This document shows, in pieces, positions 20,293-24,042 of a stretch of 64,000 nucleotides of DNA. How positions within the stretch are numbered: position 1 is the first letter of the stretch; the number at the start of each line of letters is the position of its first letter. Origin of the DNA: Motilibacter peucedani (GTDB lineage Bacteria; Actinomycetota; Actinomycetes; Motilibacterales; Motilibacteraceae); assembly GCF_003634695.1 (NCBI RefSeq), contig NZ_RBWV01000015.1, forward strand, positions 124,001 through 188,000. Reading direction: 5' to 3'. The notes beneath the pieces are model-generated. The model made no database searches and was not told the DNA's origin. It saw nothing but the letters and a program-made list of their open reading frames with translations. Position numbers and translations under genes: made by a program.

Positions 20293-20434
20293 CGTTCGGG
20301 GACGAGGCCGGGGTGTCCGCCGTGCCACAGGACTGACAGGTTCCTCCCAGGGAACGCGCGTAGCGTCTGGTCTGTTGGACACAGGGTTGCCTGAGGCCGA
20401 GAGGCCGGTGTCGATCTCGAGGAGGGTGCGCAGC

Positions 20435-21904
20435 GTGGGTGCAGCGAGGCTCTGGGTACGCGTGGGTGCGCTCGCCGCGAGCGGCGCGCTCAGCCTGGCC
20501 CTGACCGCCCCCGCCCGTGCCGCGAGCCCGGCCCTGACGCCCTCAGCACCGGGGGCCGTGGCCTCCGACACCCCGAGCTCGGCCCCCGCGCCGACCGCGG
20601 GCGGCGGCGCGGGCGACGTGGCCGGGGACCCCGCCACCCCGGCCGGGACGGCGACGCCGAGCCCGACCGCCAGCCCCACCGCCAGCCCGGGTCCGGGCGG
20701 CACCGCGTCGAGCTCTCCCTCGCCCGGCACCCCCTCGCCGGGCTCCACGGGCGCGCCCACGCCCTCGGGGACCTCGTCGCCCGGCTCCTCACCGACACCG
20801 AGCGCCTCCCCGACGCTGAGCCCGGAGCAGGCGGCGGCCCTCGCGGCGGCGGTGCGCGCCGGGACCGCCTCGCTCCAGCAGGCGACCGCCGAGCTGGCCG
20901 TGCTGCGGGCCGCCGCGTCGAAGGCGCTCGAGGCCCACTCGGTCGCGAAGCGCAAGGCCGACGCAGCCACTCTCGCGGCCAAGGCCGCGAAGGAGCTGGC
21001 TGCGGCCGACGAGGAGGCGGCCGCCCAGGCCCAGGGCTCGCTCAACCGGCTCGCCGCCAACGCCTACCGCGGCGGCCCGCTCGGCTCGAGCAGCGCGAGC
21101 ATCACCGCCCTGCTGGGGGCGAGCGACCCCGCCGACTTCCTGCGCCGGGCCCACGACGTGCGGGCCATGGCCGCCGAGCGCGCCGCCACGCTGCACGTCG
21201 CGCGAGCGGCGGTGGAGAAGCACCAGGACGCCGCCGCCGCGGCCCAGGTCGCGGCCGACAGGGCGGCGGCGGCCGAGCGCGGCGTCCGCGCCACCCAGGC
21301 CCGGAGCACCACGCTGGTCACGTCGGCGAGCCGGCTGGTGGCCGCGCTGGCGACGAACCTGTCGGCGAAGGACTCCTCGGCCAAGCTGGCACAGGCGACC
21401 TCGGTGGCCGAGCAGCGGGCGGTCGAGAACGCTCTGGTCAAGGCGCGGGCCCAGGCCCGCGGCGAGCCGGTGCTGGGCGTCGGCGGCTGCGCCGGCACCG
21501 ACGTGTCGGCCTACCCCAACGGCCAGCTGCCGACCGCGGCGCTCTGCCCGCTGTGGGGGGCTCCGGGGCACCTGCTCCGTGCGGACGCCGCTGCGAGCTT
21601 CAACGCGATGAGCAAGGCCTACGCCGAGACGTTCGGGACGCCGATCTGCGCCACCGACTCCTACCGCGACCTCGCGATGCAGCAGGACCTCTTCGTGCGC
21701 AAGCCCACGCTGGCCGCGGTACCCGGCACCTCGAACCACGGCTGGGGCCTGGCGGTCGACCTGTGCGACGGGGTCGAGAGCTTCGGCACGCCGCAGCACG
21801 AGTGGCTCGACGCGAACTCGTTCAGGTGGGGCTGGTTCCACCCGGGCTGGGCCGAGCCGACCGGCAGCCGGCCCGAGCCCTGGCACTGGGAGTTCAGCGG
21901 CTGA
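20435..21904 (+). CDS. Secreted M15-family D,D-carboxypeptidase (VanY-like) with coiled coil
   Basis: The protein (about 489 residues) has a signal peptide ending near TAPARA, a Pro/Ser/Thr-rich linker (about 25-130), and an Ala/Lys-rich coiled coil (about 130-335) like those of cell-wall hydrolases. The C-terminal zinc peptidase domain has TDSYRDLAMQQ, SNHGWGLAVDLCDG (HxxxxxxD zinc motif) and EPWHWEF. It likely trims peptidoglycan stem peptides, with the coiled coil as a regulatory arm. GTG 20435 is preceded by GAGGAGG nine bases upstream; GTG 20426 and 20408 are in-frame alternatives. Confidence 0.85.
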   Translation: MGAARLWVRVGALAASGALSLALTAPARAASPALTPSAPGAVASDTPSSAPAPTAGGGAGDVAGDPATPAGTATPSPTASPTASPGPGGTASSSPSPGTPSPGSTGAPTPSGTSSPGSSPTPSASPTLSPEQAAALAAAVRAGTASLQQATAELAVLRAAASKALEAHSVAKRKADAATLAAKAAKELAAADEEAAAQAQGSLNRLAANAYRGGPLGSSSASITALLGASDPADFLRRAHDVRAMAAERAATLHVARAAVEKHQDAAAAAQVAADRAAAAERGVRATQARSTTLVTSASRLVAALATNLSAKDSSAKLAQATSVAEQRAVENALVKARAQARGEPVLGVGGCAGTDVSAYPNGQLPTAALCPLWGAPGHLLRADAAASFNAMSKAYAETFGTPICATDSYRDLAMQQDLFVRKPTLAAVPGTSNHGWGLAVDLCDGVESFGTPQHEWLDANSFRWGWFHPGWAEPTGSRPEPWHWEFSG

Positions 21905-21926
21905 CGCCGCTGGAGCGCGGGTGGGG

Positions 21927-22223
21927 TCAGGCCACGAGCGAGGTGCCGGAGGCGGCCGCGTACGCCGCCTCGCGGTCGTCCTCGGACATCCCGCCCCACA
22001 CGCCGTAGGGCTCGCGCACCGCGAGCGCGTGTCGGGCGCACTCGGCCAGCACCGGGCAGGTCGCGCAGACCGCCTTGGCGGCCTCCTCGCGAGCACGCCG
22101 GCGCGGGCCGCGCTCGCCGTCGGGGTGGAAGAACGTGTCGGGGTCGGCGCCTCGGCAGGCGCCGAGCAGCTGCCAGTCCCACAGGTCCGCGTTGGGTCCG
22201 GGAAGCCGGGAGAGCTCGGCCAT
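21927..22223 (-). CDS. whiD: WhiB-family iron-sulfur regulator, WhiD/WhiB3 type
   Basis: The 98-residue protein holds four [4Fe-4S] cysteines (C23, C53, C56, C62) in ACRG and VCATCPVLAEC, and the sigma-factor-contacting GVWGGM turn. Its start, SRLPGPNADLWDWQLL, closely resembles Streptomyces WhiD as I recall it, rather than WhiB1 or WhiB2. WhiD is needed for late spore maturation in Streptomyces, and WhiB3 of mycobacteria senses redox state. These proteins bind domain 4 of the primary sigma factor. A GGAGG (reverse complement) six bases before the ATG sets the start. It sits divergently from a MerR-type regulator, with bldM next. Confidence 0.93.
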   Translation of the reverse strand: MAELSRLPGPNADLWDWQLLGACRGADPDTFFHPDGERGPRRRAREEAAKAVCATCPVLAECARHALAVREPYGVWGGMSEDDREAAYAAASGTSLVA

Positions 22224-22340
22224 GCGGATCGCCTCCTTGCGTCGTTGTGAGGACGGTATAACCGCGCCATAAGTTGTTCAACCCTCCATCGCTGAGACGT
22301 GGCGCACACGCCCCCGCTGGCGGGAGCCCTCCGGCCGCGG

Positions 22341-22346
22341 GACGAT
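22341..22346 (+). promoter_or_regulatory. Candidate -10 of the MerR-type gene
   Basis: GACGAT ends five bases before the GTG at 22352 and no Shine-Dalgarno is present, suggesting a leaderless message. The match to TANNNT is partial. Confidence 0.3.
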
Positions 22347-22351
22347 GCAGT

Positions 22352-23260
22352 GTGGACTCCGAGGCCGTGCTGTCCGTCGCGGCCGTCGCCCGTCGGCTGG
22401 GCGTCGCACCCGCCACGCTCCGGACGTGGGACCGCCGCTACGACCTCGGCCCCTCCGGGCACACCGCGGGCTCGCACCGCCGCTACACCGCCCACGACCT
22501 CGAGCGGCTCACGCTGATGCGCAGGCTGACGCTCGAGGGCGTGCCGCCGGCCGAGGCCGCGCGCGTCGCTCTGGCCGCCGAGGACGTCACGCCCCAGCCG
22601 GCCACCCCGGTCGGCGGTGGGCGGGTGCTGGCCATGCCGGGCGGCAGCGCGGCGACCCGTGGGCTGGCGCGGGCCGCCATGGCGCTGGACGACCACGCCT
22701 GCAGGCAGATCATCCGCACCACCCTCGACGCCATCGGCGTGGTGGCGACCTGGGACCAGCTGCTCCGGCCGGTGCTCGCCGGCGTGGGGGAGCGCTGGGC
22801 GCAGACGGGGGAGGGGGTCGAGGTCGAGCACCTCCTCAGCGAGGTCTCGGCGAGCGTCTTCCGCACGGGCGCCGAGGTCGCCAACCCGCTCAACGGGCGC
22901 CCGGTGCTGCTCGCCGGTGCTCCGCAGGAGCTCCACATCCTGCCGCTGCACGTGCTGGCCGCGGCCCTCGCCGAGCGCCAGGTCGCCAGCCGGGTGCTCG
23001 GCGCCCAGCTGCCGGCGCGCGCGCTGGTCGACGCAGTGACCCGCAGCGGTCCCGCCGCCGTCGTGCTCTGGGCGCAGCGCACGGCCAGTGCCGACGTCTC
23101 CGGGCTCGCCTCGCTGCCGGGCCAGCGCCCGGCGCCGGCGGTGTTCGCCGGCGGGCCCGGCTGGGACGCCGTGGAGCTGCCGGAGGGCGCGCGGCGCCTC
23201 GAGTCGCTGGGCGACGCGGTCGAGACGATGGTGGGGCTGGTCACGGCGCGTCGCGCCTGA
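22352..23260 (+). CDS. MerR-family regulator with cobalamin-binding-type C-terminus (CarH/LitR-like)
   Basis: The 302-residue protein has an N-terminal MerR helix-turn-helix (about 6-75, SVAAVARRLGVAPATLRTWDRRY). A four-helix B12-cap-like domain and a Rossmann-like domain follow. Residues W149, E159 and H160 reproduce the W-x9-EH motif of light-sensing CarH proteins, where these residues line the adenosylcobalamin. H195 in QELHILPLHVLAAAL sits where the lower-axial cobalt ligand (ExH or DxH) is expected. A B12-dependent light or cofactor sensor is therefore possible. The GTG at 22352 is chosen because it begins the HTH. It is flanked by whiD (divergent) and bldM (same strand). Confidence 0.75.
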   Translation: MDSEAVLSVAAVARRLGVAPATLRTWDRRYDLGPSGHTAGSHRRYTAHDLERLTLMRRLTLEGVPPAEAARVALAAEDVTPQPATPVGGGRVLAMPGGSAATRGLARAAMALDDHACRQIIRTTLDAIGVVATWDQLLRPVLAGVGERWAQTGEGVEVEHLLSEVSASVFRTGAEVANPLNGRPVLLAGAPQELHILPLHVLAAALAERQVASRVLGAQLPARALVDAVTRSGPAAVVLWAQRTASADVSGLASLPGQRPAPAVFAGGPGWDAVELPEGARRLESLGDAVETMVGLVTARRA

Positions 23261-23377
23261 CCCTCCGCTCCGCGCCGGCCGCTGACGGCGACCGGTCACC
23301 GTGCGTACGCGTTGTCGCGATTGCCCCGGGCTCAGGACTCCAGCCCCGCGGGTCGCCTGCCGAAAGCACTGGTGTCA

Positions 23378-23436: not shown

Positions 23437-24042
23437 ATGCCCACGGTCCTGGTCTGCGATGACTCGCCGATGGCGCGCGAGGCGCTCCGGCGCGGCGTGG
23501 CGGCTGTGCCGGGTATCGAGCGGGTGGTCGTCGCCGGCTCCGGCGAGGAGGCCGTCGCCCGCTGGGGCCACGACCGCCCCGACCTGGTGCTCATCGACGT
23601 GCGCATGCCCGGCCTCGGCGGGATCGAGGCGGCTCGCCGCATCCTCGCCCAGGACCCGACAGCCAGCGTCATCATGCTCACGATGGCCGAGGACGTCGAC
23701 GGCGTCGCCCGTGCGGTGGCCTCCGGCGTGCGCGGCTACCTCGTCAAGGACGCGACCCGCGAGGAGATCGCAGCGACCGTGACCTCGGCGCTGGGCGACT
23801 CGAGCCTGCGCCGCGCCGCGGTGCCCGTGGCCCGGGCCGGCGACGCGCCGACGCTCACCGAGCGCGAGATGCAGGTGCTCGACGGCATGAGCCGCGGGCG
23901 CAGCAACGCCGAGATCGGGCGTGAGCTCTACCTGTCCGAGGACACGGTGAAGACCCACGCCCGACGGCTGTTCCGCAAGCTCGGCGCTGCTGACCGGGCG
24001 CACGCGGTGGCGCTCGGCTTCCGCCTCGGGCTCGTCCGCTAG
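23437..24042 (+). CDS. bldM: Response regulator BldM
   Basis: The 201-residue NarL/FixJ-type regulator has receiver acidic residues at D8/D9, the phospho-acceptor position D54 in LIDVRMPGLGG, and a C-terminal LuxR helix-turn-helix, TLTEREMQVLDGMSRGRSNAEIG. The linker and the end (SEDTVKTHARRLF, DRAHAVALGFRLGLVR) match Streptomyces BldM almost word for word as I remember it. BldM drives aerial growth genes as a homodimer and late genes as a heterodimer with WhiI. Its position beside whiD and upstream of guaB copies the Streptomyces order. The stop shares CTAG with the convergent glucosidase. Confidence 0.93.
   Translation: MPTVLVCDDSPMAREALRRGVAAVPGIERVVVAGSGEEAVARWGHDRPDLVLIDVRMPGLGGIEAARRILAQDPTASVIMLTMAEDVDGVARAVASGVRGYLVKDATREEIAATVTSALGDSSLRRAAVPVARAGDAPTLTEREMQVLDGMSRGRSNAEIGRELYLSEDTVKTHARRLFRKLGAADRAHAVALGFRLGLVR

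Follow-up and report, generated by a model that had tools for sequence, protein, structure and literature searches.

We describe a gene in a 64,000-nucleotide stretch of Motilibacter peucedani DNA (contig NZ_RBWV01000015.1, positions 124,001 to 188,000; this whole stretch is called the window) whose product combines a MerR-type helix-turn-helix (HTH) with cobalamin (B12)-binding domains. This MerR-B12 gene is divergent from a whiD-like gene; its product matches CarH-type photoreceptors in domain architecture, fold, and pocket residues, and the intergenic region holds a conserved element whose occurrence is linked to the pairing of the two genes. The conserved whiD pairing and the proposed operator are well supported. 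We propose that the protein serves whiD as a dedicated regulator of a CarH-like, cobalamin-dependent type, probably repressing it in the dark and letting go in the light.

The whiD pairing and its promoter element

The whiD-like gene is the divergent neighbor of the MerR-B12 gene in all of the named loci (80/80). An alignment of 81 whiD-side intergenic regions yielded a 22-bp conserved element on the whiD strand (TTGAMCAANNNWTGNMNCGNTT). The two genes and the promoter between them are laid out in the window as follows (the -10 hexamer and the ribosome-binding site were read from the sequence).

21927 to 22223, minus strand: whiD-like gene of the WhiB family, 98 amino acids (PF02467, 1.4e-25), divergent, the presumed target
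22232 to 22238, minus strand: whiD ribosome-binding site, AAGGAGG
22253 to 22258, minus strand: proposed whiD -10 hexamer, TACCGT, 17 bp from the -35 hexamer
22260 to 22281, minus strand: 22-bp element TTGAACAACTTATGGCGCGGTT, the proposed operator (repeat 1, 22271 to 22281; repeat 2, 22260 to 22270)
22276 to 22281, minus strand: whiD -35 hexamer, TTGAAC, the first six bases of the element
22352 to 23260, plus strand: regulator with MerR HTH and cobalamin-binding domains, on domain, pocket-residue, and model evidence
22373 to 22567, plus strand: HTH segment of the regulator
22658 to 22861, plus strand: helical B12-binding_2 segment
From about 22904, plus strand: Rossmann B12-binding segment
22796 to 22798 (W149), 22826 to 22831 (E159 and H160), and 22934 to 22936 (H195), plus strand: pocket codons

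We compared the occurrence of the element with the gene pairing in a sample of 148 genomes of the class Actinomycetes, for which 81 whiD loci of 78 genomes entered the count. A whiD-like match was present in 88 genomes, of which ten, from family f17, were excluded because their matches (E of about 1e-22) were regarded as other WhiB paralogs. Most lower-scoring WhiB paralogs were left out as well, as were L234 and L235, which duplicate other loci. The 300 bp preceding each whiD gene were scanned with a weight matrix whose training set was 73 named loci, eight others having been set aside because the sample included close relatives of them; the shuffled-sequence maximum of 4.7 bits served as the threshold. 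The element was detected before 38 of the 44 whiD genes beside a MerR-B12 gene and before none of the 37 without one (best unpaired score, -2.7). Since the Fisher value for this association (4e-17) ignores relatedness, the table by family gives a fairer view: 15 families with the pair show the element, and family f18 has it in the one paired genome and in none of the nine unpaired ones. An exact-pattern search of the 148 genomes agrees with the matrix count; the MerR-adjacent sites precede whiD, and the other matches are scattered.

This association, rather than biochemistry, makes it very likely that the MerR-B12 protein binds the 22-bp element. The element could instead be the site of another factor (i.e., WhiD itself or a sigma factor), with the MerR protein acting elsewhere. 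We consider this quite improbable, as the 37 whiD genes without a MerR neighbor are devoid of the element, the same split is seen within f18, and the repeats of the element match those of CarH operators in length (PMC9304148, excerpt).

An excerpt of the same source describes CarH operators as 11-bp repeats in tandem (nnnnTnnACAn), with the -35 hexamer inside one of them. The element splits into two 11-bp units over the -35 hexamer, and its self-identity peaks at a shift of 11 (0.46, versus 0.05 to 0.35 at the other shifts from 5 to 15). The variable base of repeat 1 is A (TGAACA, as in the window) in 43 and C (TGACCA) in 38 of the 81 aligned regions; in f11 (L162, L198, and L199), each unit approximates TTGNACAASTT. 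Several spacer positions are constant in 79 to 81 of the 81 regions, which is the level of the -35 hexamer, so promoter function alone is an insufficient explanation for the conservation. Some two dozen loci carry a second, inverted copy of the element, of varying quality, at a fixed 9-bp gap and facing the MerR gene, suggesting that some members of the family may be autoregulated through a symmetric site arrangement; no clear second inverted copy was found in the window.

The window contains one element site at up to three mismatches (0.10 expected), and the source genome contains one at up to one mismatch. A wider regulon was rejected, the source genome having 11 matches at up to three mismatches versus 16 for the reversed control pattern. 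Elsewhere in the source genome, two near-perfect 11-bp repeats (L263, contig C17, 1782 to 1803; TTGAACCAGTTTTGGACAACTT) lie upstream of an SRPBCC-like gene, at a distance of about 60 bp, with a divergent Rieske-like gene nearby (both named by eye). This possible second target was not counted because the pattern was composed after the sighting and because the site is absent from four relatives at up to three mismatches.

Domain architecture, fold, and putative cobalamin pocket

The MerR-B12 gene is a genuine open reading frame of 302 amino acids with a GTG start; an antisense open frame of 836 amino acids (20789 to 23299, minus strand), which spans it and extends into its neighbors, is most likely a high-GC artifact. 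Pfam assigns MerR_1 (residues 8 to 72; 1.2e-15), B12-binding_2 (residues 103 to 170; 1.5e-8), and B12-binding (PF02310; residues 185 to 270; 6.9e-5) in the order that characterizes CarH/LitR, with the PF02310 match (23.1 bits) lying under its curated cutoff (32.1). By sequence, its closest relatives of known structure in the PDB are Thermus CarH (1e-17; residues 2 to 294) and the CtMerR photoreceptor (7.8e-11).

An AlphaFold2 model built from 70 aligned relatives has a mean predicted local distance difference test (pLDDT) score of 92.7, and full-length CarH is its top-ranked Foldseek match (4.1e-16). In VIA-align comparisons, the cobalamin part is best matched by a photocobilin (PDB 8j2w; Z = 20.8; root mean square deviation [rmsd], 2.6; 198 aligned residues), and CarH 5c8a gives a Z of 19.4 (rmsd, 2.6; 190 aligned residues). 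CarH 5c8a chain residues 81 to 274 overlay model residues 99 to 293 with an offset of 18, so that W149, E159, H160, and H195 fall on CarH W131, E141, H142, and H177 at the residue level. The initial annotation had named these four residues as a possible adenosylcobalamin (AdoCbl) pocket and had called for a structure prediction against CarH. The residues are indeed at their claimed positions (W-x9-EH, and H195 in QELHILP) and align with those of Thermus thermophilus CarH, and the comparison returned a confident model with CarH-type domains as the best PDB matches and H195 on the lower-ligand histidine.

Of 80 named relatives, 77 share W149 and 72 share E159 (six have S instead), and H160 and H195 are each present in 79, so the motif is not due to chance; the two residues of GxxxP are retained in 77 and 79. 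The pocket thus has the upper-ligand Wx9EH and lower-ligand His of CarH/LitR. Across the class sample, E159, H160, and H195 hardly vary, unlinked paralogs included; the W149 position is W or F if the gene is linked to whiD and often Q or H if it is not. Six small-genome relatives of family f5 (L111, L112, L113, L115, L117, and L119) have Phe in place of W149 and keep E159, H160, H195, and the whiD element. We infer that the protein operates in a CarH-like manner, and it likely binds AdoCbl.

The closest known systems share parts of this design. CarH/LitR (T. thermophilus; PDB 5c8d, 5c8e, and 3whp) has the same MerR HTH, helical, and Rossmann B12 domains, and the Wx9EH motif with the lower-ligand His; its operator of 11-bp repeats that includes the -35 hexamer resembles the one proposed here. 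In contrast, the window protein is only about 30% identical to it and has no GxxH, HxxG, or His132; its proposed operator has two repeats rather than three, and its neighbor is whiD rather than carotenoid genes. CtMerR (Chloracidobacterium thermophilum; PDB 8jbs and 8jbt), likewise of the MerR/B12 type, shares the W, EH, and H residues; it also does without the CarH His132 and has A at the Gly of HxxG. Its identity is about 24%, and it retains GxxH. The photocobilin mentioned above is from Saccharothrix syringae; its aligned part lacks a MerR HTH, and it is a two-chromophore protein (PMC11796333, excerpt).

Mode of action and competing explanations

In the mechanism that we propose, the C-terminal domains would carry cobalamin, most likely AdoCbl. 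In the dark, the AdoCbl-bound protein would assemble and bind the two tandem 11-bp repeats covering the whiD -35 hexamer and spacer, where it would block RNA polymerase. Light would break the cobalt-carbon bond, or B12 shortage would leave the protein empty; the protein would then release the DNA, and the WhiD iron-sulfur (Fe-S) regulator would be made. Release by light appears fairly likely on present evidence, and repression of whiD is the direction of control that we moderately favor over activation. Of the 81 regions, 72 have a -35 to -10 spacer of 17 bp (47 regions) or 18 bp (25 regions), and seven have no TA-NNN-T hexamer. For a protein sitting over the -35 hexamer and spacer of a normally spaced promoter, repression is the simplest outcome, as with CarH.

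Conserved bases that fill the promoter spacer would also suit activation of whiD in the manner of the classical spacer-binding MerR activators. These activators act on promoters with a spacer of 19 to 20 bp, rather than the 17 to 18 bp found here. Furthermore, CarH operators that overlap the -35 hexamer repress (PMC9304148, excerpt), and we regard activation as unlikely.

Several findings weigh against a CarH-like light switch. The published light signature consists of GxxW, EH, GxxH, and GxxxP (PMC11796333, excerpt), of which three of the four are present in the window protein (GERW, EH, and GAQLP) and GxxH is not: its Gly is Q192 (QELH), with G in 13 of the 80 relatives. The Gly of HxxG is P198 (P in 68 and A in 10 of 80), and the second ligand of the light state, CarH His132, is A150, next to the Trp; the residues commonest at this position among the relatives are E, A, Q, S, and R. 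The NCBIfam CarH equivalog NF052513 scores 78.3 bits versus a cutoff of 400 bits. Since the protein, when tested for these defining features, lacks GxxH and H132 and stays far under the NCBIfam cutoff, we do not file it as CarH. The CarH-type assignment of the initial annotation draws support from the sequence, from the confident model, and from the conservation of the four pocket residues, but the pocket departs from that of CarH at Q192, P198, and A150. In addition, the W position is occupied by Q or H in some unlinked paralogs of light-type loci; repeat 2 deviates from TnnACA in most loci and is degenerate in the window; and the element is missing from six of the 44 paired loci (f27, 3/3, with a distant MerR; f28, 1/1; f21, 1/2; and f33, 1/2). 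The source genome has two cobalamin adenosyltransferase genes, with both kinds present, but such supply is hardly discriminating because adenosyltransferase PF01923 occurs in 138 of the 148 class genomes. Finally, CarA of M. xanthus is a CarH paralog that works without B12 (PMC9304148, excerpt).

The window protein could resemble CarA in having kept the fold and responding to another protein or ligand, and the subthreshold PF02310 match is consistent with this. The class-wide near-invariance of E159, H160, and H195, which extends to the unlinked paralogs, makes B12 independence rather improbable. One further case points the same way: a degenerate MerR relative beside whiD (L151; G081, f33) has lost the EH and H195 residues, and its element is missing too.

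A pocket without the CarH His132 and without the Gly residues of GxxH and HxxG might alternatively belong to a sensor of cobalamin status, in which the level of AdoCbl, or AdoCbl versus other B12 forms, would set whiD and light would be incidental. WhiD, as a redox/nitric oxide-type Fe-S regulator, could suit such a metabolic cue (PMC6282962, excerpt). However, the W and EH residues that hold the adenosyl group in photoreceptors are kept, paralogs lie in photolyase and isoprenoid loci, and CtMerR, which has A at the HxxG Gly and R at His132, is nevertheless reported as a photoreceptor (PMC11796333, excerpt). We therefore consider a status sensor to be a somewhat unlikely alternative to the light-released repressor.

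Genomic context, distribution, and significance

The gene on the other side of the regulator is as follows.

23437 to 24042, plus strand: bldM-like response regulator with receiver and LuxR/GerE domains (PF00072 and PF00196), a neighbor here and not a conserved close neighbor

The PF02467, PF00072, and PF00196 matches bear out the initial annotation in that the MerR-B12 gene separates a divergent whiD-like gene from a bldM-like gene. The WhiB domain, together with the synteny of whiD (i.e., its groEL-side and bldM-side neighbors), places the former in the WhiD/WhiB3 class. Among the 80 named loci, 71 have groEL on the side of whiD and 75 have guaB downstream. A bldM-like gene lies within 500 bp of the MerR-B12 gene in four loci and at 0.5 to 6 kb in 34; 41 have none between the MerR-B12 gene and guaB, and one locus is too short to judge. 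Of the joint input to whiD and bldM that had been suggested, the whiD part is strongly supported by the distribution of the element, and bldM was dropped as a conserved feature of the target, being close in so few loci. The label "developmental-type" is misleading for the family because small-genome relatives in f26 (about 1.3 to 1.4 Mb) carry both the pair and the element.

In family f9 (L105, L101, L106 to L108, L110, L120, and L121), the MerR-B12 gene stays by groEL and whiD is no longer beside it; one of these proteins (L120) has R for H160 and Y for H195. The groEL-whiD gap of the window (20375 to 21904) encodes a long protein in which a VanY-type D-Ala-D-Ala carboxypeptidase domain is combined with a stretch rich in Pro, Ser, and Thr; three relatives (L096 to L098) also have this protein. 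The record titles of L020 and L023 (Bifidobacterium breve metagenome-assembled genomes) and of L072 (Rhodococcus rhodnii NRRL B-16535) seemingly mismatch their content, and the whiD region of L072 is nearly the same as that of Kibdelosporangium L091.

The MerR-B12 gene occurs in all five genomes of the order and in 72 of the 148 class genomes (E of 1e-25; paralogs counted). At the strict cutoff of 1e-50, none of 181 genomes of the phylum outside the class gave a match, versus 7 of 17 inside it. We do not claim a single clade for the paired genes because the grouping in the tree, which mixes them with unlinked paralogs, is weakly supported.

The unlinked actinobacterial paralogs (for example, L203, L209, L211, and L220) belong to the same family and class and keep E159, H160, and H195; they differ in their neighbors and in the W149 position, which outside f19 is often Q or H (H in L209 and Q in L220). 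The neighbors are a DNA photolyase (L203), a polyprenyl synthetase (L209), a flavin adenine dinucleotide (FAD) amine oxidase-type gene (L211), and an extracytoplasmic function (ECF)-type sigma factor (L220). Three of these loci have the following coordinates.

L203, 3204 to 4574: unlinked paralog locus
L209, 3075 to 4190: unlinked paralog locus
L220, 3424 to 3945: unlinked paralog locus

Such neighbors match the company typical of light regulators and may offer nearby support for a light role. The neighbors tested at L204, L207, and L218 showed no such link (i.e., no family, DJ-1/PfpI, and cytochrome b, respectively).

In the open-licence PubMed Central literature, we found no paper joining a B12/MerR regulator with whiD or whiB. 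This kind of protein is known; the whiD target and the class-wide whiD pairing appear to be undescribed in that literature. For the class Actinomycetes, we tentatively suggest, at slightly less than an even chance, that WhiD/WhiB3 has long had a dedicated partner in a CarH-like cobalamin photoreceptor, that light or the loss of AdoCbl induces whiD through an operator of 11-bp repeats including its own -35 hexamer and spacer, and that the lineages with unpaired whiD, Streptomyces-like ones included, lost both the input and the site. The label Streptomyces-like, as applied to f19, is based on the size of the genomes and on whiD lying next to bldM.

The roles of the Fe-S regulators WhiD and WhiB3 in sporulation, redox balance, and virulence have been studied extensively, but the control of their own transcription is not well understood. 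A switch made of one gene and one site beside whiD, kept even in small genomes, is a concrete candidate for an upstream signal, and actinobacteria with the pair should shift whiD transcription under green light or B12. If our reading is true, B12 photoreception in the class Actinomycetes would reach beyond pigments to a redox regulator, and its known scope would widen from carotenoid to redox control.
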